Origin: Dehalogenimonas etheniformans
GTDB taxonomy: Bacteria > Chloroflexota > Dehalococcoidia > Dehalococcoidales > Dehalococcoidaceae
Assembly (NCBI RefSeq): GCF_014672715.2
Contig: NZ_CP058566.2
Span: forward strand, 1,426,001 to 1,490,000
Length of the DNA: 64,000 nt
Reading direction: 5' to 3'
Every line of letters starts with the position of its first letter. Within the stretch, counting starts at the first letter, position 1. The notes beneath the pieces are model-generated. The model searched no databases. It saw only the letters and a list, made by a program, of their open reading frames with translations, and had not been told where the DNA came from. The position numbers and the translations under genes are program-made. Below are positions 7,338 to 49,700 of this stretch, one piece after another.

Positions 7338-7692
7338 GGGGACGCGTGGTTTCGACAGGGGAGGTTAGTTACGGAATTGCGGGTTGAGCTTGCCGCTAAG
7401 CTCATTAATCCTGGTGGCAAAATACAATTGGCGAACGTGAACTCGTTCTCGCCGGCTAAATAAAGCCAGCGCATCCGCCGCGCTCCACCCCAACGGGCGC
7501 GGACCGGGTGCCGAAAGATTGGGGTGCCTCCAACCAGACACCGATACGGAAGGCGAAAGAAAAATCGGCTGGCCCCTAAAGATTCCGCCGGTTGAAGCTT
7601 AAAGGGCGAGAAACAAACATCCGGCTAGACCTGTAGTAAATTCCGGACAGTCTTTTCTGGACGGGGAGTTCGACTCTCCCCCGTCTCCACCA
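7338..7692 (+). ncRNA. ssrA: tmRNA (SsrA)
   Basis: The 5' end GGGGACG pairs with CGTCTCC before the 3' ACCA, giving the tRNA-like acceptor stem, and the 5' side has the conserved GTGGTTTCGACAGG block. The T-arm is GGGGAGTTCGACTCTCCCC at 7663-7681. The mRNA-like part encodes GERELVLAG followed by TAA (resume codon at 7430, stop 7457-7459); this is the tag I recall for Dehalococcoides, supporting a Dehalococcoidia host. The RNA of 355 bases is intact although the 3' part (from the T-arm on) has been supplied by an integrated element. A strong terminator follows at 7703. Confidence 0.97.
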
Positions 7693-9295
7693 GAAACACG
7701 ACCGAGCCTTTGGGAGAAGATCCCAAGGGCTCGTTTATTATATGGATTTTAGAATCTTTCTTGGCTGAAGCTACTTGGAAGATCGGCCTAAAGGGCGGCT
7801 TTGGCATCACGGCAACCACATTCTTCCCAGCTTTCGCATCGATGTAAACTGCATCAAGCATGGTAACGAGAATCTTTCTCTGCTCTGAGAGGTTGGCTTT
7901 AGCCCATAGCTTTGGAAGATCCAGAATAAGCTTTCCAGCTTCCTCAGCGGCGTTATAGTCAGGAACAATTAGAGACTCAAGACTAAGTTCTAGTAGTCTC
8001 TTCTGTTTCTTGTACTCTTCCTCTTCAATCAGACCATCGATGTAAGCTCTGCCCATTCTGTGTAGTTTGCCTTTAGCCTCTTCCCTTTCTTGGTTGATCC
8101 GGTCAACATCATCTTTCAAGGCAATCACCGAGAGTACTTCTTCAAGCCACCTAGGACCGAGTTCAATGGCTGAGACTAAGCTTCTAACCTGTTCATCGAT
8201 AGTTGAACAGCTTATGGCTCCTCCATGTCCGGGACAGTCCTCAATGCTCCTGGTGGCTTTGTGTTCCCGATAATAAGTATTTCCGCTCTTATAGGTCTGA
8301 GCCCACATCGGCATACCGCAATAGGCGCATCTCACCAAGCCTTTAAGCAGATATTCTCTTTCAGGGTGAGACGATAGAGTCTCAGACCGGCTGCAGTTCT
8401 TTCTAAGTGCTGCCTGAACTGTGTCAAACACTTTTTTACTGACAATCGGTTGATGAGCGCCAGGTAAGGCCTTACCTCGATAGATGACTTGACCTGTAAA
8501 GAATGGATTGTGAAGTATGCCTCTCACTGAGGCGGTTGTGAAGAACCTTGGTCCTGAAACAAGGTTGCCAATGGCATCCGGCATTGCCTTAGTATTTCTG
8601 GTCCTGAAACCCTGAGCATTGAGCCAGGAAGCAAGGGTAGCCAACGTTGCTGAGCCAGAAGCGTAGCGTCTGAAAAGATCGGTTACCGTTGGTCCCTCAG
8701 TTGGATGAATATGGATCCCGGCTGGGTGCTCGGGGTCGCACTTCTTGATCTTCTCGCCTTTTTCTGATTTGTCCCAGCATGATTCATATCCGAAAGGGAT
8801 AGCCCCATGGTGTTTGCCCTCAAATATCCGCTGTTCCTGTCCTTTCTTCACATGCTTGGCCAGAGAAGATGAAAAGAACTGGTTGAAAGCTCCCAGCATG
8901 TGTAGGTGCAGCATGCCGTCTGGCGTGGAATAGTCCAGGCTCTCGGTGATCGATATCAAACCGATGTTGTGCTTGGACAGGATCGATAATGACTCGAGCA
9001 TCACCTTCAGATTCCTGCTCCAGCGGTCGAGGGTGTGGATCACGATGACATCAAATTGATGTTTTGTGGCATCGTCTAGAAGTTTCCGAAAGACTGGACG
9101 CTTATTGATAGCATCGACATGAGCGCTCTTGCCTTCTTCCCGATAAACATCAACCGCTTGCCAGCCCCTGTTCTGGCAGAGCTCACGGAAAAGTCTTTCT
9201 TGAGCGCTAAGTGAATGACCCTGCACCTGGGATTGATCGGAGACCCTTGTGTAGGTAACCGCTCTCTTCTGTTCAAGCAAGTCGGTCGCTTTCAA
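7625..9295 (-). CDS. Large serine recombinase (site-specific integrase)
   Basis: A 556-residue large serine recombinase. The N-terminal resolvase domain has the catalytic serine in YTRVSDQSQ (Ser19) with the usual Arg-rich blocks (LDRWSRNLKV). The middle recombinase domain spans about 170-300, and a Cys4 zinc ribbon follows (CAYC...DCPGHGGAISC, about 315-360). A coiled coil (about 395-450) comes before the C-terminal region. It starts at TTG 9295 inside the upstream small gene. The last 22 codons and the stop lie antisense in the 3' end of ssrA, so the tail (RPEKTVRNLLQV) is made of host DNA; a fragment of a sister recombinase at 39173-39535 carries the presumed un-integrated tail. It should integrate and excise the island at ssrA. 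Confidence 0.95.
   Translation of the reverse strand: MKATDLLEQKRAVTYTRVSDQSQVQGHSLSAQERLFRELCQNRGWQAVDVYREEGKSAHVDAINKRPVFRKLLDDATKHQFDVIVIHTLDRWSRNLKVMLESLSILSKHNIGLISITESLDYSTPDGMLHLHMLGAFNQFFSSSLAKHVKKGQEQRIFEGKHHGAIPFGYESCWDKSEKGEKIKKCDPEHPAGIHIHPTEGPTVTDLFRRYASGSATLATLASWLNAQGFRTRNTKAMPDAIGNLVSGPRFFTTASVRGILHNPFFTGQVIYRGKALPGAHQPIVSKKVFDTVQAALRKNCSRSETLSSHPEREYLLKGLVRCAYCGMPMWAQTYKSGNTYYREHKATRSIEDCPGHGGAISCSTIDEQVRSLVSAIELGPRWLEEVLSVIALKDDVDRINQEREEAKGKLHRMGRAYIDGLIEEEEYKKQKRLLELSLESLIVPDYNAAEEAGKLILDLPKLWAKANLSEQRKILVTMLDAVYIDAKAGKNVVAVMPKPPFRPIFQVASAKKDSKIHIINEPLGSSPKGSVVFLVETGESRTPRPEKTVRNLLQV
7660..7692 (+). other. Left attachment site of the island in ssrA
   Basis: The T-arm and 3' end of ssrA form the host side of the integration site. 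The centre, TTCGACTCTCCCCCGTCTCC, recurs at 39336 and, with one change, at 42525, there joined to a different left arm. The left arm here is ssrA; the right arm continues directly into the recombinase gene. This is established behaviour for ssrA-integrating islands of Dehalococcoides (vcr-type islands). Confidence 0.8.
7703..7740 (+). terminator. ssrA terminator
   Basis: CGAGCCTTTGGGA at 7703 pairs with TCCCAAGGGCTCG at 7721, loop of five, followed by TTTATTATAT. Copies of this same hairpin occur at 39371, 42560 and 49663, which is how the successive right-hand borders of the island can be recognised. Confidence 0.85.
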
Positions 9296-25144: not shown

Positions 25145-25177
25145 ATGCTTAGATAATTAAGCCTTTAGGACGATGTA
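25145..25177 (+). promoter_or_regulatory. rdhA-upstream box B (copy 2)
   Basis: AATGCTTAGATAATTAAGC followed by CTTTAGGACGATG, ending 54 bases before rdhA copy 2. It contains the palindrome GCTTA-N6-TAAGC. Close relatives are at 34648 (before rdhA copy 6) and 26888 (without an adjacent rdhA). Confidence 0.5.
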
Positions 25178-28745: not shown

Positions 28746-30248
28746 TTACCTTCTATAACCACCATCGTATGCAATTCTTGTTGTATCTACACCTTGAGCA
28801 GGAAGAGATAAATCCCACCACTTTTCGGGATCCATTTGCCCATATCCAAAAACTTCGCTCATGTTGTAGAAAAAACTATTGAAGATATTTGTCGAAGCCA
28901 TCGTGGTTTTGACGATTTCATGGACTAATGCCCTGTCGTTATTGTTAAAAGGGCAGACAGCGTAGCAAATTTTACAACTGCTGTTGACGTATCCATTTTC
29001 TTGGCTCCACATGGAGCAAGTTTCAGTATCCTGCCAAAAAGCCCGAATACCCTTTGGATGGAAAATTGTTGGTTTCCCTTCCACCATCGGTTGGTCCCAG
29101 GTGGGTTCTTTTTCATTGGAGATAGCGCTTGCGGGGCAGCTTTTAGCACACTTCCCGCAACTGTGGCAAAACTGCCAAATACCGGCATCTATTGGCTTGG
29201 TAGGAGCTAGAGGTAAGTCCGTTAAAAAAACGAACATACGACCAAACTGACCGTATTCCGGTGTAATAGTGTATAGCTGTTGCCGCGTGTGTTCACCGAC
29301 GCCCGACAAGACCTCGCCAGGCCCGCCGGCAATTGGCTCGTCGCCATCTACATGGTTGGTCAACATCTGATAACCCAGGTATCTTTGGAAATTAAAGGAA
29401 TGGCAATACGTGTTCATATTGACGTATGCCCCACCAACGTTACCCACAGAGCCCAGGGGGGATGGGGCACATCGAAAAAGTTCCTTTGACATTTGGGTGA
29501 AATAGGCGACATACCACATCGGTTTGGTGGGGATAACTCGTTTGCTGGTCGTTTCATACCCCTTAACAACATCCTCATAAACATAGGGAGGCGCCGCACT
29601 TGCCGGAGGAGGCCATGAGTCAATGAAATTTGTGCCTGAAGTCGATGCGCGAGGATAAGCCAAAACGATCTTATCCCTCATACGTTGATCTAGTTCCCCA
29701 TAACCAACCAGGGTGGCGCCACGGTGCCTGAGAACAGCCGTTAGCATCTGGCTTGCCTCTTCGGGTGTGCCAGTCCACTTGGGCTCTCCCCTTTCTTCTG
29801 GGGTCTTGGCTTGAGCGATGCCAACGGGTCCATTTGCCCAGGTATGAGCGACATCGATTTTGTAGGGTACTTCACTCAAAGCCCGCGCTCTATATGTATA
29901 ACCAGGCTCATTGGCAGCGACGCGTTGAGCGTAAACCTCCGCGTTCTTCTTAGCAGCGTTAATTACACGTTGTTTCCCGAAGTATTGGGCACGAGAGTAG
30001 GCGGTTTGCGATGTGAGTCTTGAATCGTACCGTTCAAGCATGGTCCAATCAACGTCGATAGTTGGATTATAAATTTCTCTATCCTTGACGTACCACGGGC
30101 GTTTCTGGATCGATTTTGATGAAGCCATTACTTCGTCTAGGTCATGAAAGGTTGGCGAAGTCAATGCAGCCCCTCCAAATCCCACTCCAGCAAAACCAAG
30201 TCCTTTCATAAAATCCCTTCGGCTTACTGTGCTATGAAATACCGACAT
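28746..30248 (-). CDS. rdhA: Reductive dehalogenase catalytic subunit, copy 4
   Basis: A 500-residue RdhA (MSVFHSTVSRRDFMKGLGFAG) with Fe-S motifs CHSCGKCAKSCP and CKICYAVC (CX2CX3C form; the preceding Cys is in ETCSMWSQENG). The start at 30248 follows AAGGAGAAGG. Its upstream region, and only that of copy 6, contains a conserved ~88-base divergent unit with its own promoter and terminator (30303-30390), which would overlap the mRNA leader. It is the first gene of an operon with copy 3. Confidence 0.95.
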   Translation of the reverse strand: MSVFHSTVSRRDFMKGLGFAGVGFGGAALTSPTFHDLDEVMASSKSIQKRPWYVKDREIYNPTIDVDWTMLERYDSRLTSQTAYSRAQYFGKQRVINAAKKNAEVYAQRVAANEPGYTYRARALSEVPYKIDVAHTWANGPVGIAQAKTPEERGEPKWTGTPEEASQMLTAVLRHRGATLVGYGELDQRMRDKIVLAYPRASTSGTNFIDSWPPPASAAPPYVYEDVVKGYETTSKRVIPTKPMWYVAYFTQMSKELFRCAPSPLGSVGNVGGAYVNMNTYCHSFNFQRYLGYQMLTNHVDGDEPIAGGPGEVLSGVGEHTRQQLYTITPEYGQFGRMFVFLTDLPLAPTKPIDAGIWQFCHSCGKCAKSCPASAISNEKEPTWDQPMVEGKPTIFHPKGIRAFWQDTETCSMWSQENGYVNSSCKICYAVCPFNNNDRALVHEIVKTTMASTNIFNSFFYNMSEVFGYGQMDPEKWWDLSLPAQGVDTTRIAYDGGYRR

Positions 30249-30302
30249 TTTTCCTTCTCCTTCTTTTTGAATCGTTTTGTCGTTTTGGGATAAAATAAGC
30301 AT

Positions 30303-30390
30303 GGGAAGGTCGTTAAATTCTGACCCTCATCCGGCAGTTTTTACGTTCTTCCTTTCTGGCGGCCTCTCGAACAGGCCGCCGGTTTTTTTT
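30303..30390 (+). ncRNA. Putative small RNA divergent to rdhA copy 4 (copy 1 of family)
   Basis: A + strand promoter TTGAAT-N17-TAAAAT (30268-30296) is followed, from about 30303, by an 88-base segment that ends in the perfect terminator GGCGGCCT...AGGCCGCC with eight T (30358-30390). The segment is ~75% identical to the reverse complement of 34838-34924, including CTGACCCTCA, CCGGCAGT and CTTCCTTTCTGGCGGCC. In both places the unit points away from an rdhA and overlaps its leader. No coding frame is conserved between the copies. RNA function is inferred. Confidence 0.6.
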
Positions 30391-30703
30391 GTTTTTACGC
30401 GCTAAAAATATAAAAGCACCTGCACAGTCTTGATGCCCCTTTTTGTTCTGGTAGGCAACTCCTTACCGCTTAAAACGCGACGTGTCTATATTTGGTATTT
30501 ATTTCTCATCTGGTGGTTTTATAGGCTACTTTTTGTGAAGTTGCATCGTCCTTTGGTACTAGTACTGCATTGTACTTTATGCCGATTTCTATTTTGTTAT
30601 TACCTTCTAAACGAGTTAATTAACGTTCCGTTATGTCATTTATGGCACCTATTGTATAGACTCTTCATGCTATGATGTATGCAGTTGAGGTCATAAAGGA
30701 CTG
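30391..30703. other. AT-rich intergenic region before the two-component genes
   Basis: No convincing gene. An 81-codon hydrophobic frame (30430-30675) has no ribosome site, is AT-driven and does not resemble RdhB. The region should hold the promoter of the kinase gene. Confidence 0.35.
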
Positions 30704-31864
30704 ATGAATAATTCCCAGCGACTCGAGTCAGAGTTAAAATATCAAATTCTCTTTGATAACGCTGACGATGCGATATTGGTCTGGAAGGTTAACGAGAAAC
30801 TCAATGAGTTTGTTGTAATTGAAGCTAATCAGGTGGCATGTAACCGTTACGGATATGCGCATAATGAGATTATCGGCCTGACCGGAGAACAGTTGAACAC
30901 TCCTGAAAGCCTTTTAAGGAATAGGTATGTTGGTGCAGCCCTCGCTAGAGATGGGCATGTCACCGCTGAAATTACCCATTTAACCAAATACGGTAAACCG
31001 ATCCCTAATGAGGTGCGCTCCCACCTATTTTCTCTGAACGGAGAACGGGTAATCATCTCTGTCTGCAGGGATGTTTCCGAGCGCAAAGAACTCGAAAGAC
31101 AACGCCAGGAACTCCTTCAACAAGAGCGTCGGCTCCGTGAAAAAGCTGAGGCGGACACGCTGATGAGGGCTAATTACGTCCGTGCGCTGGCTCACGAGTT
31201 GAAAACACCACTCACATCGCTCATGGCCTCCAGTGAGCACCTGATGGATGTACTAAAAGACGGTCACCTTAATGAGTTCGCCAAGAATATTTGCTACGGA
31301 GCGGAAAGAATCAACAACCGCATCGAAGAACTACATGACATGGTACGCCTCGAAAGTGGAAATTTTAACCTACCATCATATCCAGTCGATATGAAGCAAC
31401 TACTTCTTGACGCGGTCGCTTTCGTTAAACCCACAGCGGTTAAGGGCAAGATTTCTCTTGAAATCACAATTCCAAATGAATTGCCTTTGGTTTGTGGCGA
31501 TACCGAGCGTTTGCAGCAGGTCGTACTTAATCTGCTGAACAATGCCTTGAAATACACCCCTAAGGGGGGGGCGGTCTGGCTTAAAGCCTCAGTTGGACAA
31601 AAGGGGCTCATAGTCGAAGTAGGAGACACCGGATGTGGCATTCCAAAAACGGATCAAAATGATCTATTCAAGCCCTACAATCGACGACATCCTAAACAGC
31701 AGAAGGTTGATGGGCTGGGTTTGGGACTAGTTATCGCAAAAGCTATCATCGAACGATACGGCGGACGAATATGGTTAGACAGTCAGCCCGGCAAAGGAAG
31801 TAGGTTTTTTATCGCCATGCCCATAATCACCCCGGAGGCTAATTGTGAAGGCGCTTGTAATTGA
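30704..31864 (+). CDS. Cytoplasmic PAS-domain sensor histidine kinase
   Basis: A 386-residue kinase without membrane segments. One PAS domain covers about 10-125, a short coiled coil about 125-155, and the HisKA domain has the phosphoacceptor His164 in ALAHELKTPL. The HATPase domain shows NNALKYTPKGGAVW (N box), VGDTGCGIP (G1) and GLGLVIAKAIIERYGGRIW (G2). Soluble PAS kinases next to rdhA genes are common in Dehalococcoidia and are thought to sense organohalides or redox state. Its end overlaps the response regulator start by 20 bases, so the pair is coupled. Confidence 0.93.
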   Translation: MNNSQRLESELKYQILFDNADDAILVWKVNEKLNEFVVIEANQVACNRYGYAHNEIIGLTGEQLNTPESLLRNRYVGAALARDGHVTAEITHLTKYGKPIPNEVRSHLFSLNGERVIISVCRDVSERKELERQRQELLQQERRLREKAEADTLMRANYVRALAHELKTPLTSLMASSEHLMDVLKDGHLNEFAKNICYGAERINNRIEELHDMVRLESGNFNLPSYPVDMKQLLLDAVAFVKPTAVKGKISLEITIPNELPLVCGDTERLQQVVLNLLNNALKYTPKGGAVWLKASVGQKGLIVEVGDTGCGIPKTDQNDLFKPYNRRHPKQQKVDGLGLGLVIAKAIIERYGGRIWLDSQPGKGSRFFIAMPIITPEANCEGACN

Positions 31865-32546
31865 CGATGATGATGGAATAATCCAGTCAGTTTCACTATG
31901 CCTGGGGCTGATCTGGCCGGATTCCGATATCAACTGGTGCCATCTAGGAAACGAAGGGATTAGTATGGTCCGGGAGACCTCTCCCGAATTGGTAGTTCTC
32001 GATCTTGGTCTGCCCGATATTTCCGGATATGACGCCCTGAAATCAATCCGCTCTTTTTCAAAAGTACCGGTCATCGTGCTCACCGTTCGAAGCGATGAAG
32101 ATGATGTGGTTAGAGCTTTCAAACTAGGGGCCGATGACTATATTACCAAACCTTTTCGCAAGTTTGAGTTCCTTGCCAGGATTCAATCGGCCCTTTCCAA
32201 GTTTTATCCTAGAGCGGAGGATACCGGCAGCATAAAGACAAAATATGGCAACCTCCAATTCGACTCAACGCTCAAACAGCTTATCTACAATGGCAAGACA
32301 ATCAGCTTGACCTCGACTGAAAGTAACACCTTGCGCATTCTCCTTGACCGCCAAGGTAAAATCGTAAGTTATAAAGAAATCGAACAAGAACTCTGGGGAC
32401 ATAACGTTCCAAATTCAGTCAAGGTAATCCGCGTTTATGTGAATCGGCTGAGAGAAAAACTTGAGCTTAATCCCAAAAATCCAAGACTAATTATCACCGA
32501 ACCGGGTATTGGTTATTCGATTCATCCGACTGGCCCTAGGTCGTAA
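31845..32546 (+). CDS. OmpR/PhoB-family response regulator
   Basis: A 233-residue regulator beginning at GTG 31845 inside the kinase gene. The receiver domain shows the acidic pocket IDDDDG, the phosphoacceptor Asp in VVLDLGLPD (about residue 52), the Thr in VIVLTVRSDEDD and the Lys in ITKPFRKFE. The C-terminal winged helix has LTSTESNTLRILLDRQGKIVS and VYVNRLREKLELNPKNPRLIITEPGIGYSI. It is followed by rdhA copy 5 and is the obvious candidate to bind the shared box upstream of copies 5 and 1. Confidence 0.93.
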   Translation: MKALVIDDDDGIIQSVSLCLGLIWPDSDINWCHLGNEGISMVRETSPELVVLDLGLPDISGYDALKSIRSFSKVPVIVLTVRSDEDDVVRAFKLGADDYITKPFRKFEFLARIQSALSKFYPRAEDTGSIKTKYGNLQFDSTLKQLIYNGKTISLTSTESNTLRILLDRQGKIVSYKEIEQELWGHNVPNSVKVIRVYVNRLREKLELNPKNPRLIITEPGIGYSIHPTGPRS

Positions 32547-32653
32547 CTTCAAAGCTTTCTAAGTTCCTGCACAACTCCTTAGCCATCTATTATTGATTCC
32601 AAAAAGTATAACTTTTCGTTAATCTATTCGTTTATCATCACATAACAATTCAG

Positions 32654-32680
32654 AAATCAGCATAAATGCGTATTTACATT
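32654..32680 (+). promoter_or_regulatory. Box shared by rdhA copies 5 and 1
   Basis: AATCAGCATAAATGCG followed by TATTTACATT, 57 bases before the rdhA copy 5 ATG and about 110 bases after the response regulator stop. It matches the box before copy 1 almost base for base. Confidence 0.55.
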
Positions 32681-32737
32681 GGAAAAACGCAATAGTACAG
32701 TTTCTCCCAATGCAACGAAGGAGGAGTAGAAAAAGAC

Positions 32738-34264
32738 ATGTTTCATAGTACAGTCTCAAGAAGAGAATTTATGAAAGGACTCGGCCTTGCTGGTGCCGGC
32801 ATTGGAGCAGCCAGTCTGGTTTCCCCTGTGTTCCATGACCTTGATGAACTAGCTTCATCTGAGAGCGCATCTTATCGGCGCTCTTGGTGGGTCAAACAGA
32901 ATTTGGAACATCATCATCCGACTGTTGAAGTCGACTGGGGCCAGATGAAACGCATTGACCAACGTCTGACGACTCAGTCGGCCTATGTCAATGCCCAATA
33001 CGAGGGACTAGCCGAATGGAAAGCATTGATAACGCAAGGCGCCCCGACTCTGGCAAGTTTTAACGGACAAAAAGGCAACCGGCTAAGAGATTTAGCTCTG
33101 AATGCTGGGGCTGGTTATCATATGCAATCTGGCCCCGTAAAATTAACTCCCGTTTATTACCGTTCAACGTTACTTGGTCCTACCGATGGGGCACCGACTC
33201 CACAACAGAGAAATATGCCTAAATGGACAGGAACGCCAGAAGAAGGATCACGCATATTACGGGCAGCGGCGGTGTTTTATGGTGCCGGTCAAATAGGTGG
33301 CGCTGAGCTGGACCACAAACTGGTCTTCACTCACATCAAACATGGCAAAACAGCAACGGCTAACGACGCAACATTTATCGATACTTTCCCGCAGCCCTTA
33401 ACTGCCGGACCAAAAATAGAATTCGTGGACGATGATATTGGCCACGAAACCGATGAAATTAAATATCTGCCAAATAAAACACTAATGGAAGTCGGAGTCA
33501 TGATTCCCATGTCTAGAGAAGCTTGGAGAACGGATGACCCAGTAGCCGGCTCGTCCATTAGGGCTGCTGCTAATATAAGTCGATATAGAATATGGACCAC
33601 CTGCGTTCAGCCTGCTATCCAGGTTTTTCTCCGTTCTCTCGGGTACACGGGTTACGGCTACCCATATCCTGATATGTCAGGTGGGCTTGTCCCCGCCCAG
33701 GCAAGCGCTGTGCTGGGTGGTGTTTCGGAAATGGGACGCTCGAGCGAAGTCGCGATAAATCCAGAACATGGCTCGACTGGAGGATACTACAGCTTCCTTA
33801 CAGACCTCCCGATGGAGCATGATAGGCCTATTGATGCCGGTATCTTCCGCTTTTGTCATACCTGTCGTAAATGCGCGGATGCCTGCCCATCGGAATCCAT
33901 TTCGCAGGACGCGGAGCCTTCTTGGGACATACCCCAATTTGATTACAAAGTACCGGCTATGAATATGGCTGCCGGCAAAAAATTGTTTTGGACCAATACA
34001 CACTCATGCGCCAAATATCGGCTATCCGCTGCATGCTGTATCTGTCGTCCAGTGTGTACTTTCAATGTGAATCAAGGCTCAATGGTTCACGAATTGGTCA
34101 AATCTACTGCAGCAAACACATCACTGTTTAATGGCTTTTTCTGGAGTATGGCCAAACCATTCGGATATGGGCTGAAAGATCCTGACGAATGGTGGGATTT
34201 GTCTCTGCCGAGTTGGGGGACAGATAGCACTATGAGTGCATTCGATGGGGGCTATCGGAAATAA
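32738..34264 (+). CDS. rdhA: Reductive dehalogenase catalytic subunit, copy 5
   Basis: A 508-residue RdhA with the Tat motif SRREFMKGLGLAGAG only six residues from the start (one residue shorter leader than the others). Fe-S motifs are CHTCRKCADACP and CAKYRLSAACCICRPVC, where adjacent Cys residues make the CX2C/CX3C assignment ambiguous. GAAGGAGGAG precedes the ATG. It directly follows the two-component genes and shares its upstream box with copy 1. A very strong terminator follows at 34286. No rdhB. Confidence 0.95.
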   Translation: MFHSTVSRREFMKGLGLAGAGIGAASLVSPVFHDLDELASSESASYRRSWWVKQNLEHHHPTVEVDWGQMKRIDQRLTTQSAYVNAQYEGLAEWKALITQGAPTLASFNGQKGNRLRDLALNAGAGYHMQSGPVKLTPVYYRSTLLGPTDGAPTPQQRNMPKWTGTPEEGSRILRAAAVFYGAGQIGGAELDHKLVFTHIKHGKTATANDATFIDTFPQPLTAGPKIEFVDDDIGHETDEIKYLPNKTLMEVGVMIPMSREAWRTDDPVAGSSIRAAANISRYRIWTTCVQPAIQVFLRSLGYTGYGYPYPDMSGGLVPAQASAVLGGVSEMGRSSEVAINPEHGSTGGYYSFLTDLPMEHDRPIDAGIFRFCHTCRKCADACPSESISQDAEPSWDIPQFDYKVPAMNMAAGKKLFWTNTHSCAKYRLSAACCICRPVCTFNVNQGSMVHELVKSTAANTSLFNGFFWSMAKPFGYGLKDPDEWWDLSLPSWGTDSTMSAFDGGYRK

Positions 34265-34285
34265 ACGAATCGCGTCAATAATCAT

Positions 34286-34319
34286 AAAGGCGGGCTCGTT
34301 TTCGAGCCCGCCTTTTCTT
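34286..34319 (+). terminator. Terminator of rdhA copy 5
   Basis: AAAGGCGGGCTCG pairs with CGAGCCCGCCTTT, loop of four T, followed by TCTT. Confidence 0.9.
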
Positions 34320-34488
34320 CAATGATTCTCAAGGAATTGATAACCAATTTTTATATGACATTTCCTCGAGTTTATCTCACTGTTTATAGCATTTTGCGCC
34401 TCGATCTCAATGAAGAGTCAGATAACTGAACTTCTCGAGAAGCTTCATAGTCCCCTTTATTGCCATCGAGTTCCGTTCTATGATCGAT

Positions 34489-34570
34489 CGCGTTTCAGGT
34501 AGAGTCCGACTCTCCGAGGAGGACACTTTACAAATGACCGAGATGGTTTAAAGCCATCTCGGTCATTTCT
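34489..34570. repeat. Attachment-like repeat and hairpin
   Basis: One dyad at 34489-34524 (AGAGTCCGACTCTCCGAGG) followed by the hairpin AAATGACCGAGATGG...CCATCTCGGTCATTT (34531-34567). The 170 bases before it, 34320-34488, hold no gene. Confidence 0.7.
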
Positions 34571-34647
34571 CGACTCACCCACTCCAGGATAGCCATTCTT
34601 TACGCCAGGCTCGGGTATGTATACATAAGTTTCAGGGTAAGTCCAAA

Positions 34648-34680
34648 ATGCTTAGATTATTAGTCCTTTAGTACGATGCA
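34648..34680 (+). promoter_or_regulatory. rdhA-upstream box B (copy 6)
   Basis: AATGCTTAGATTATTAGTCC then TTTAGTACGATG. It matches the box before rdhA copy 2, but here it lies 290 bases from the gene because a leader RNA-like segment and a small RNA unit are interposed. Confidence 0.5.
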
Positions 34681-34683
34681 TTC

Positions 34684-34828
34684 TTGACCTTTGAAAGGTA
34701 TAAATAAGCATAATATGTGATAACTTGAATGTGTAATCGTTGAAGGCCTACGCACCTTTGGCGAGAAGGGGGTAGCCTACCGATTGGTGAAGCACTAGAC
34801 CTGATAAGGTTTAGTGCTTTTGTGTTTC
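34684..34828 (+). promoter_or_regulatory. Possible promoter and structured leader ending in a terminator
   Basis: TTGACC at 34684 with CATAAT at 34709 may be a promoter. A structured segment follows (GGCCTACGCACC...GGGGGTAGCCTACC, 34745-34780), then an intrinsic terminator AGCACTAGACCT...AGGTTTAGTGCT (34791-34818) with TTTTGTGTTT. The order promoter, structure, terminator, gene suggests an attenuator or a short RNA. It does not match a riboswitch class I know. Confidence 0.4.
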
Positions 34829-34837
34829 TGGAGCCTA

Positions 34838-34924
34838 ATAAAAGACCAGCGGCCAGTGCGAGTGGCCGCCAGAAAGGAAGGTGTAAAGACTGCCGGTTGA
34901 GGGTCAGAGGTTAGTGGCCTTCCC
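34838..34924 (-). ncRNA. Putative small RNA divergent to rdhA copy 6 (copy 2 of family)
   Basis: Minus-strand promoter TTGATT-N18-TAAAAT (the -10 at 34931-34936) followed from about 34924 by a segment homologous to 30303-30390 and ending in the hairpin GCGGCCA...TGGCCGC with a TGGTCTTTTA tail. It is antisense to the region between the structured leader and rdhA copy 6. The promoter, internal motifs and terminator are all conserved with the copy beside rdhA copy 4, while the loop bases differ, as expected of a functional RNA. Confidence 0.6.
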
Positions 34925-34971
34925 ATATTCATTTTAGCTAATCGGTAAGAATTAAATCAAGGAGGTCATCT

Positions 34972-36504
34972 ATGTCAAAGTTTCATAGTGTGATCAGCAG
35001 GCGGGATTTCATGAAGGCAATTGGTTTAGCGAGTGCCGGTATAGGCGCTGCCTCCCTAGTTGCACCTGTGTTTCACGATCTGGATGAGTTGATCTCTTCG
35101 GATAGTGCGGGGTGGCAACGTCCTTGGTGGATAAAACAAAAAGATGAGCCCACTGTTGAAATCGATTGGAGCCAAATAAAGCCATATGATCACCGGCTGA
35201 TTGGTTTTGCGGCTTACGCAAATGCACAGCATTGGGGATTGGATAGATGGAAAGAGGTAATCGCTCAGGGACCAGCGAAGACTGCCTCACTTAAAGGAAC
35301 GAAGGGTTGGCGTATACGGGAAATGGCCCTTAGCCAAGCTGGCACCCCGTTTGCCGATTGGCGAACGAAAAATGCAGAATTTATGGGTTTTTCTACGGTT
35401 ACTCCCGAGACTCTAGGGCTTCCAAAATGGCAGGGTAGCCCCGAAGAAAACACCCGGATGATTAGGGCAGCAGCGATCATTGAAGGTGCCACTCAGATTA
35501 GCACTACCGAGCTTGGCTCGAACGAACGTAATCTTGTGTATACCTACGGAAGACAGGGCATATTGGGTATGTCAACAGAAGATCAATTTATGACCAAGTG
35601 GCCGCCGCCAGCCGGTTATTGGCACAAATACGAATTTAGAAACGTTGATATCGGGTATACAGCACCAGTCGACGGTGTAGATGGTGTTTTGTGCGTTTTG
35701 CCGGATAGGCCTCTTTATGATATCAGCGTAATGATCCCAATGGCTAAAGAAGCCTGGAGAACGACTTCGGACGATCAAAAATCATCCGCGATGATTGGTT
35801 CTGAAGCGAATGCGGCACGCTATCGCATGTTCCATACCTCGACGTTACCGGGCATTCAGACGTTCATAAAAGCCATAGGATATCATAGTTATGCGTATGC
35901 AAAAAACGATACCGCAGGTGGGTGCTTGCCTTCCGAAGCAAGTGCAGTCCTAGGCGGGATATCGGAGATGAGTCGCAGCAGTGAAATTTGTATCAATCCT
36001 GAATATGGTCCTGTAACTGGTTATTATAGTATCTTAACTGATCTACCTATGGCGTCTCTAAAACCGATCGATGCCGGTATTTTCCGTTTCTGCCATTCTT
36101 GCCGCAAATGCGCAGATTATTGCCCATCTGGTTCGATCTCTTTTGATAAAGAACCGTCTTGGGAAATACCTAATTTTGACTACAAAGTTAAAAATATGTG
36201 TCTGGCTCCTGGGAAAAAACTCTTTTGGATAGACATTACCAAATGTCAATCCTCTCGCCAGTATATCAACCAATGTTCTTTCTTATGTAGAGGGGTTTGT
36301 TCTTTTAACGTAAACAACACGGCTCTAATCCATGAAGCGGTACATGTAACGGCATCCACCACGGGTGTCTTCAACGGATTCTTTTACAACATGAGTAAAG
36401 CTTTTGGGTATGGACCCCTTGATCCTGATGATTGGTGGAGTATGGCATCAAACCTACCTACCTGGGGGACATTCCCAACACAAAATACTACAAGGGGAAT
36501 CTAA
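34972..36504 (+). CDS. rdhA: Reductive dehalogenase catalytic subunit, copy 6
   Basis: A 510-residue RdhA (MSKFHSVISRRDFMKAIGLAS), with CHSCRKCADYCP and CQSSRQYINQCSFLCRGVC (CX3CX3C form). It ends TTRGI, like copy 7 (TRGL) and unlike the others. AAGGAGGTCATCT precedes the ATG. Its long upstream region carries box B, a leader-like structure and a divergent small RNA. A terminator (36518) separates it from copy 7, 123 bases further on. No rdhB. Confidence 0.95.
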   Translation: MSKFHSVISRRDFMKAIGLASAGIGAASLVAPVFHDLDELISSDSAGWQRPWWIKQKDEPTVEIDWSQIKPYDHRLIGFAAYANAQHWGLDRWKEVIAQGPAKTASLKGTKGWRIREMALSQAGTPFADWRTKNAEFMGFSTVTPETLGLPKWQGSPEENTRMIRAAAIIEGATQISTTELGSNERNLVYTYGRQGILGMSTEDQFMTKWPPPAGYWHKYEFRNVDIGYTAPVDGVDGVLCVLPDRPLYDISVMIPMAKEAWRTTSDDQKSSAMIGSEANAARYRMFHTSTLPGIQTFIKAIGYHSYAYAKNDTAGGCLPSEASAVLGGISEMSRSSEICINPEYGPVTGYYSILTDLPMASLKPIDAGIFRFCHSCRKCADYCPSGSISFDKEPSWEIPNFDYKVKNMCLAPGKKLFWIDITKCQSSRQYINQCSFLCRGVCSFNVNNTALIHEAVHVTASTTGVFNGFFYNMSKAFGYGPLDPDDWWSMASNLPTWGTFPTQNTTRGI

Positions 36505-39172: not shown

Positions 39173-39535
39173 TTAAGGCCCCTCGGGTGGGCTTGTACCA
39201 ATCAACTCTATGATTTCCATGTTTCCGGCAGGGACTTCCTCCAAAAAGGACGACGCCTGACACTCGGCCGGCCGTATCAACCCCTCGTTCATCTCTTCAG
39301 CGATCCACTCTAGGATCTCCCGTGTTTCAGGTATCGTTCGACTCTCCCCCGTCTCCACCAGAAACACGAACGAGCCTTTGGGAGAAGATCCCAAGGGCTC
39401 GTTTATTATATGGATCTTAGAATCTTTCTTGGCTGAAGCCACCTGGAAGATCGGTCTGAAGGGCGGCTTTGGCATAACGGCAACCACATTCTTCCCAGCT
39501 TTGGCATCGATGTAAACTGCATCAAGCTTTGATAT
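39173..39535 (-). pseudogene. 3' fragment of a second serine recombinase
   Basis: From 39352 to 39535 the DNA is ~95% identical to the 3' part of the intact recombinase (7683-7866), encoding VAVMPKPPFRPIFQVASAKKDSKIH and VFLVETGESRT. The homology stops abruptly at 39535, where a DNA glycosylase fragment begins. Beyond ESRT the tail is IPETREILEWIAEEMNEGLI and so on to a stop at 39173, different from the intact gene's ssrA-derived tail. It thus preserves what is probably the native (un-integrated) C-terminus. Confidence 0.85.
39218..39404. repeat. Hybrid attachment site: island left arm joined to ssrA-type right arm and terminator
   Basis: A decayed dyad at 39218-39252 is followed 103 bp later by the site 39321-39360. 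There the left arm is the island repeat (CCCGTGTTTCAGG) but the centre and right arm are the ssrA 3' end (TTCGACTCTCCCCCGTCTCC, then ACCAG). The ssrA-type terminator CGAGCCTTTGGGA...TCCCAAGGGCTCG follows at 39371-39402. This is what a junction between two successive ssrA integrants should look like. Confidence 0.8.
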
Positions 39536-42403: not shown

Positions 42404-42594
42404 ACATATTTCCGGCAGAGTCCGACTCTCCGAGGAGGACGATGCCTAATAATCGAACGATAGCTTCACGTTTTCGAACTGTCTAGTCCAGAACCAGTTC
42501 GACAGGTTATGCGTGTCTGACAGATTCCGACTCTCCCCCGTCTCCACTAGAAACACGAACGAGCCTTTGGGATTTTCTCTCAAAGGCTCGTTTT
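42404..42594. repeat. Right-hand hybrid attachment site with ssrA-type terminator
   Basis: A dyad at 42404-42441 is followed 108 bp later by 42512-42549, where an island left arm (GCGTGTCTGACAG) joins the ssrA-type centre and right arm (TTCCGACTCTCCCCCGTCTCC, one base changed from ssrA; ACTAG replaces ACCAG). The terminator GAGCCTTTGG...CAAAGGCTCG (42560-42590) has a shortened stem. No recombinase remnant follows, so this may be the real right end of the island. Confidence 0.75.
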
Positions 42595-49618: not shown

Positions 49619-49662
49619 CTACAGGTAGTCACAGCCGTCTAAATTTGCCCCGGAAACAATAC

Positions 49663-49700
49663 CGAGCCTTTGGGAGAATGTCCCAGAGGCTCGTTGATTT
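49663..49700 (+). terminator. Fourth copy of the ssrA-type terminator
   Basis: CGAGCCTTTGGGA at 49663 pairs with TCCCAGAGGCTCG at 49681, followed by TTGATTTT. The preceding bases (CGTCT at 49636, GGAAACAATAC at 49652) also resemble the end of ssrA. It may mark the outermost, oldest right border of material inserted at ssrA. Confidence 0.6.

Follow-up and report, generated by a model that had tools for sequence, protein, structure and literature searches.

A candidate family of structured small RNA genes opposite the leaders of dehalogenase genes in Dehalogenimonas etheniformans and related Dehalococcoidia

Organohalide-respiring bacteria possess dozens of dehalogenase (rdhA) genes, few of which have an assigned substrate or are expressed at once, and how these genes stay off bears directly on groundwater clean-up. 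This question is raised by a 64,000-nt stretch of the Dehalogenimonas etheniformans chromosome (here, the window; C1:1426001–1490000, C1 being the single contig of the 2,068,322-bp genome), where two rdhA genes are each preceded by a short RNA-like element on the opposite strand. Are these elements genes of small RNAs (sRNAs), and do they act on the rdhA genes that they face? The source genome contains 45 matches to the dehalogenase family, representing about 43 genes. As given in the section on rdhA regulation of a 2026 comparative study, the regulators of Dehalogenimonas rdhA genes are two-component systems, MarR and Crp/Fnr, all of them proteins, and that section names no RNA regulator (PMC13390414). 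Such proteins act at rdhA promoters, and some of the rdhA genes considered here lie near genes of these types (30704–32546 in the window; a marR gene at the Dehalococcoides locus L034).

Two homologous small RNA genes divergent from rdhA

Copy 1 of the sRNA gene occupies positions 30303–30391 (+) of the window, and copy 2 occupies positions 34837–34924 (−). A whole-genome BLAST search with 30303–30390 (+) as the query recovered copy 2 at 83% identity (E=4e-19), and a covariance model scored the two copies at 96–103 and 91–98 bits, respectively; copy 1 has five homologous copies elsewhere in the genome. Both copies specify an RNA of ~87 nt with a closing stem, an inner hairpin, a terminator hairpin and a U-tract, and have folding z-scores of −4.7 (copy 1) and −2.7 (copy 2). 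Sigma70-type promoters end ~7 nt upstream of each, namely TTGAAT-N18-TAAAAT at 30267–30296 (+) and TTGATT-N18-TAAAAT at 34931–34960 (−). The intrinsic terminator of copy 1 (30356–30390, +) has a 10-bp stem (hairpin 30356–30382), which covaries among homologs, followed by eight T, and that of copy 2 (34838–34872, −) consists of a 10-bp hairpin at 34872–34846 followed by TCTTTTATTA. No ATG was found by eye in the RNA of either copy, and a reading of the element as a short coding open reading frame (ORF) was rejected for this reason.

Both adjoining genes encode RdhA proteins by their PF13486 matches and are transcribed from the opposite strand, with start codons 48–56 nt from the sRNA copies. 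The gene divergent from copy 1 (MSVFHSTVSRRDFMK; 28746–30248, −; E=7e-37) starts at the ATG at 30248, as indicated by its Shine–Dalgarno sequence and Tat motif, and not at the ORF start at 30302. The gene divergent from copy 2 (MSKFHSVISRRDFMK) occupies 34972–36504 (+; E=3e-38). The original prediction, made from the letters of this stretch, had described the two elements as homologous, each with its own promoter and terminator (eight T in the first), upstream of an rdhA and pointing away from it. The homology, places, strands, terminators and orientation all stand, as do both promoters, except that the first spacer is N18 and not N17.

Copies in the genome and in related bacteria

By speaking of a pair, the original prediction undercounted the family, since BLAST and covariance model searches identified six copies in the source genome. 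Five of them are antisense within an rdhA leader (L001–L005), and one is free-standing (L031; C1:595627–595712, −), located between a response regulator gene and a radical-SAM gene. No sRNA was found at the position orthologous to L031 in relatives. The adjoining radical-SAM family has 14 matches in the source genome, up to 83% identical, and also occurs in relatives. The internal motifs CTGACCCTCA and CCGGCAGT, which had been reported as kept, are intact in copies 1–3 and carry small changes in the other copies.

Further homologs, for which a covariance search of Dehalococcoidia had been proposed as a check, were found in Dehalococcoides, Dehalogenimonas and four distant Dehalococcoidia. Two Dehalococcoides genomes have one copy each (L033, L034), opposite an rdhA and with a marR gene nearby, and a third has a weak copy opposite an rdhA (L037). 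At one locus common to five other Dehalogenimonas species (L035, L042–L045), a nearly identical copy lies between two tandem rdhA genes and is antisense to the leader of the second. The copies in the four distant Dehalococcoidia (L039, L040, L041, L062) have near-consensus promoters and no adjoining rdhA. Within the Dehalococcoidaceae family, 13 of the 14 copies are opposite an rdhA; together with L031, the distant copies bring those that do not adjoin an rdhA to five, and the sRNA family is not confined to rdhA neighborhoods.

Promoter conservation was examined at 18 homologous loci from 14 genomes. A promoter ending 5–9 nt before the conserved GGAAGG was found at every one (18/18), a score reached by 0–2% of random positions per locus; the L040 promoter, TTGACA-N19-TATAAT, has a wider spacer that falls outside the spacer range scanned. 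In a consensus scan, promoter- and terminator-like sites taken alone are no commoner in the region than in shuffles; the promoter and terminator evidence counts because of conservation across homologs, not because of single-site scores. Homologs devoid of the terminator and the −10 element had been named as the observation that would speak against the sRNA genes; promoter and terminator are kept at every homolog.

In the large searches, only 11–28 candidates were scored per genome and the copies already known from five Dehalogenimonas genomes were not recovered; therefore, absence in these searches means little. Covariance matches outside Dehalococcoidia (L085–L088) and weak matches (L036/L046, L047–L059, L083, L084) were rejected, as they have a GC-rich terminator only, with neither the promoter nor the GGAAGG stem. 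Three viral-contig matches to CTGACCCTCAN{1,2}CCGGCAGT proved to be coding phage DNA, and a structural pattern search of viral contigs gave no match. Ten genome-contig matches to GGAAGGN{30,50}CTTCCTTTCTGGCGG were also discarded, none of them having the inner motif plus the terminator; no Dehalococcoidia were among these ten in a collection that may leave out very near genomes.

Conserved structure and coding strand

In the fold common to the copies, the closing stem is GGAAGG/CYUUCC and the inner hairpin CUGACC/GGCAG; an internal loop and the terminator make up the rest. In an alignment of 10 sequences, 92.8% of the cells are paired and eight pairs have changed on both sides, a level reached by none of 500 shuffles and abolished by sliding the pairing partners; this alignment leans towards the structure of the model, and most of the double changes fall in the terminator. 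In single folds, the inner hairpin re-forms despite its differing sequences (CUGAC/GUCGG, CUGGC/GUCAG, AAGUUA/UAGCUU). In the closing stem GGAAGG/CCUUCC the sequence itself is kept, beyond pairing, and pyrimidines predominate in the apical loop (CCCUCA and variants).

We assign the RNA to the sRNA strand because 17 G–U cells on that strand stand against 5 A–C cells and because the consensus fold has an energy of −27.9 kcal/mol there versus −20.2 kcal/mol on the rdhA strand. With promoter and terminator kept at homologs, helices that covary and pairing that fits the sRNA strand, the claim of genuine sRNA genes is well borne out, and it is very likely that this small RNA gene family is real.

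A different reading would take the supposed sRNA for a sense-strand element of the rdhA leader, such as a riboswitch or an attenuator. Both strands are able to form hairpins, and the rdhA leader has other structure (P1 and T1, see below); moreover, going by its description of 2024, the ‘rdhA motif’ WRC-34-1, with 18 representatives, is a weak candidate for a riboswitch that directly precedes rdhA in Dehalococcoides (PMC11109978). Nevertheless, the G–U pairs, the U-tract and the promoter all fit the opposite strand, and at the free-standing copies the other strand leads into no downstream rdhA. A different sense-strand hairpin motif, GGCAUCCGGGARAGACCGGAUG, widespread in the family and located about 65 nt ahead of rdhA, also fits the published description better. 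The sense-strand riboswitch reading was rejected on the strand evidence and is very improbable.

As described, WRC-34-1 resembles the sRNA in that it is a candidate structured RNA found directly before rdhA in Dehalococcoides. It is, however, a leader element of the sense strand that is followed by rdhA, whereas the sRNA is encoded on the opposite strand and has further copies elsewhere than at rdhA genes. The two are probably different, being set apart by description and not by consensus; that GGCAUCCGGGARAGACCGGAUG is itself WRC-34-1 is a possible guess from the same description. The statement that no RNA of this type had been described in Dehalococcoidia thus needs qualification: a structured ‘rdhA motif’ has been published, although it is, from its description, probably a different element (PMC11109978). 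No family in Rfam release 15, including 6S RNA, matches any copy, with nothing at or near the gathering score. A literature search, with most subscription journals outside its reach, found no sRNA for rdhA.

Predicted rdhA promoters and antisense overlap

The predicted regulated promoter of the rdhA at 28746–30248 is located at 30518–30561 (−) and combines the box TAGTACCAAAGGACGATG (30561–30544), an N20 spacer and the −10 element TATAAA (30523–30518), which gives a predicted 5′ untranslated region (UTR) of about 263 nt. Its counterpart for the rdhA at 34972–36504 lies at 34661–34704 (+), with the box TAGTCCTTTAGTACGATG, N20 and TATAAA, and a predicted 5′ UTR of about 261 nt. Genome-wide, TAGTCCTTTAGGACGATG-N17..20-TATAAA occurs upstream of 8 of 44 rdh-type starts (N20 in seven), against 0.08 expected in shuffled upstream regions, and three further rdhA genes have the box with a looser −10.

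The distance of the box from the start codon separates the carriers of the sRNA from other rdhA genes. Short-leader rdhA genes without an sRNA have the box 72–75 nt before the start codon (31762, 298251 and 1451232, the last being window position 25158), and three others, at 86348, 321700 and 327123, have intermediate leaders of 186–249 nt and no sRNA. All five sRNA-bearing rdhA genes have the box at −306 to −397, with predicted 5′ UTRs of about 260–350 nt spanning the whole sRNA complement. The association of box and sRNA (5/5 versus 6/39) is significant (Fisher p=4e-4). The box promoter combined with a long leader is a putative regulatory class of rdhA genes that is recognizable from sequence.

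Since the predicted rdhA promoter lies beyond the sRNA gene, the rdhA mRNA should run through the whole sRNA gene. Judging from the predicted rdhA start, the rdhA transcription unit would thus enclose the oppositely oriented sRNA gene, and antisense overlap with the rdhA mRNA is likely. The original prediction had left the choice between an antisense and a trans-acting regulator; the antisense option gains support, at the level of sequence, from the predicted rdhA promoter beyond the sRNA at all five sRNA-bearing rdhA genes of the source genome. In Dehalococcoides, direct repeats ATAATGTTCGTATC occur between the sRNA and marR at L033. In strain CBDB1, mapped rdhA starts and MarR binding reportedly coincide with direct repeats; L033 would then be arranged like the source-genome loci.

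The leader of the rdhA at 34972–36504 has further structure ahead of the antisense region, as indicated by folding and a terminator scan. The segment 34735–34828 (+) comprises the P1 hairpin (GGCCUAC...GUAGCC; GGUAGCCUACC region) and T1, a terminator-like hairpin at 34789–34820 (+) that faces the sRNA terminator. A weaker T1-like hairpin in the leader of the rdhA at 28746–30248 (30404–30439, −) was recognized by position and sequence similarity only, and the scan found no stable terminator there. T1 is also present at L002 and L004 and, weakly, at L001 and L005; a motif related to the P1–T1 segment was recognized at L001, L002 and L004, and P1 plus T1 recurs in other sRNA-bearing rdhA leaders. 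T1 may attenuate rdhA or act as a roadblock that shields the sRNA gene, and the P1–T1 segment as a whole could represent an attenuator or a further small RNA.

Distribution among RdhA proteins

No single clade unites the nine RdhA proteins tested whose genes adjoin an sRNA; the label needs four changes on the RdhA tree, and several carriers have closest relatives without an sRNA. Such scattering implies that the regulatory leader was attached to unrelated rdhA genes more than once or was often lost, which argues for selection or exchange of a putative regulatory cassette over simple inheritance with one rdhA lineage.

Possible role in rdhA expression

The position of the sRNA, about 48–145 nt upstream of the rdhA start codon, is conserved. 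We propose that the sRNA would be made at a basal level from its housekeeping-type promoter and, while the rdhA promoter is in a weak state, would hold rdhA expression down by head-on interference between RNA polymerases and/or by pairing with the rdhA leader, thereby blocking or destabilizing it. Strong induction of the rdhA promoter would override the sRNA, resulting in a thresholded on/off response. The free-standing copies suggest that the sRNA may have originated as an independent trans-acting RNA and been captured next to rdhA later. That the sRNA damps rdhA expression through the leader is plausible, and we hold it with about as much doubt as belief. An RNA gene opposite the leaders of unrelated rdhA genes with one promoter type would offer a testable second layer of control beside the proteins, and assays of rdhA transcripts that do not distinguish the strands may include the antisense RNA in their counts.

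Several observations weigh against an antisense role. T1 comes before the antisense region, and many rdhA transcripts might therefore end short of the overlap; no box promoter was seen at the shared Dehalogenimonas locus, where the sRNA lies between tandem rdhA genes. Perfect complementarity in cis is automatic and proves nothing alone. Finally, a pure antisense role needs neither the conserved structure nor the free-standing copies (L031, L039, L040, L041, L062); both suggest that the RNA also does, or once did, something as its own molecule.

The last point leads to a trans-acting structured sRNA, base-pairing or protein-binding, with targets elsewhere, for which the site opposite rdhA is convenient or hitch-hiked and carries no control in cis. 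The strong-promoter copies in four distant Dehalococcoidia and L031, none of which adjoins an rdhA, would fit such an RNA, as would the closing stem GGAAGG/CCUUCC with its kept sequence and the pyrimidine-rich apical loop. However, hitch-hiking does not explain why the source-genome carriers share one promoter type although their RdhAs are unrelated, and 13 of 14 Dehalococcoidaceae copies are opposite an rdhA. Nor is pairing of the loop with rdhA starts enriched: the target search at ribosome-binding sites found no convincing specific pairing to those of rdhA, and the apical loop reached −8.7 kcal/mol with rdhA start regions versus −9.9 kcal/mol with those of control genes. For the CCUUCCUUUC linker, rdhA starts are weakly favored (p 6e-5 to 2e-3), probably because rdhA start regions are rich in purines. 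We regard an exclusively trans-acting role as rather unlikely.

Alternatively, the RNA could be inert, the promoter–terminator unit serving only to insulate or interfere, so that divergent transcription itself matters. This would agree with the convergent terminators in the rdhA leader, where the sRNA terminator faces T1, and with the promoter being kept everywhere. Against it, conservation by sequence and covariation extends past the terminator to the inner hairpin and the closing stem, and there is nothing for the free-standing copies to insulate, which makes an inert RNA improbable.

If the RNA acts on the leader by pairing, its effects might extend to other copies. Paralogous sRNAs and leaders are 77–86% alike, and each source-genome sRNA pairs with every paralogous leader at −53 to −114 kcal/mol versus about −28 for shuffled controls. 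With the leaders of paralogs only, the range is −53 to −101 kcal/mol, and L031 reaches −54 to −65 with all five leaders. The margin over the controls reflects the relatedness of the sequences. Repression across rdhA genes is therefore physically possible and, at this level, speculative. More far-reaching, and a long shot, is the idea of a mobile leader cassette (box promoter, terminator hairpin and antisense sRNA) that is swapped among unrelated rdhA genes and gives rise to a cross-pairing RNA network, which would silence most of the ~43 dehalogenase genes while one is expressed at a time.

Comparison with known antisense systems

Cis-encoded antisense RNAs have their own promoter and terminator opposite the 5′ leader of the target and full complementarity in cis. 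Here, a sigma70-type promoter of the sRNA was found at the same offset at 18/18 loci, together with a terminator that has a covarying stem and a T-tract. Unlike them, the present RNA has a fold that covaries across paralogs and species, free-standing genes of the same RNA exist, and a terminator hairpin belonging to the target leader precedes the overlap. In pT181/pIP501 antisense attenuation, the leader has its terminator after the pairing site. The two arrangements have in common a short structured antisense RNA opposite a long leader with an intrinsic terminator, but T1 (34789–34820) precedes the antisense region (34837–34924), and attenuation of the pT181 type as such is therefore excluded. 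In trans-acting sRNAs of the RsaE-like, anti-Shine–Dalgarno type, an exposed C-rich stretch pairs preferentially with the Shine–Dalgarno regions of the targets; in the present RNA, the loop favors rdhA no more than control genes, and the linker favors rdhA weakly. By its sequence features, the sRNA is a new RNA family of a known, putatively cis-antisense, kind.

Other features of the rdhA leaders and of the surrounding island

Boxes of the form TAGTCCTTTAGGACGATG-N20-TATAAA occur in the window at 25158–25175, 30544–30561 and 34661–34678 and represent a candidate site for an rdh response regulator. A PAS histidine kinase (30704–31864, +) and the adjoining OmpR-type response regulator (31845–32546, +), both assigned by Pfam, are candidate regulators of the box promoter. 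A GUAAUUGCCUAUCGAUU stretch related to the P1–T1 segment was observed in the rdhA at C1:327123, which has no sRNA.

The sense-strand leader motif GGCAUCCGGGARAGACCGGAUG(AC) is followed by a second small hairpin (GGGAAAGACC). It lies mostly about 62–73 nt before the rdhA start and was found in 10 of 11 Dehalococcoidaceae genomes, with no match in a reversed control; an rdhA is directly downstream at 18 of the 20 loci checked (L104–L122). Examples in the source genome are at C1:1177934, 1291190, 1358116 and 1362902, and the motif was not seen at the five sRNA-bearing rdhA genes.

The window also contains a tmRNA gene (7338–7692), whose 3′ end recurs at 39336 with 96% identity over 192 nt and at lower identity further on; the segments concerned are 7666–7859, 39334–39527, 42523–42593 and 49626–49696. 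They are likely attachment sites of rdh islands integrated at ssrA, with the sRNA copies inside. About 20 copies of a unit of about 105 nt with a GAGAGTCCGACTCTC palindrome, often in tandem, were observed between about 10580 and 42540; these units resemble partial tmRNA 3′ ends and are separated by a variable long hairpin (families D1–D16).

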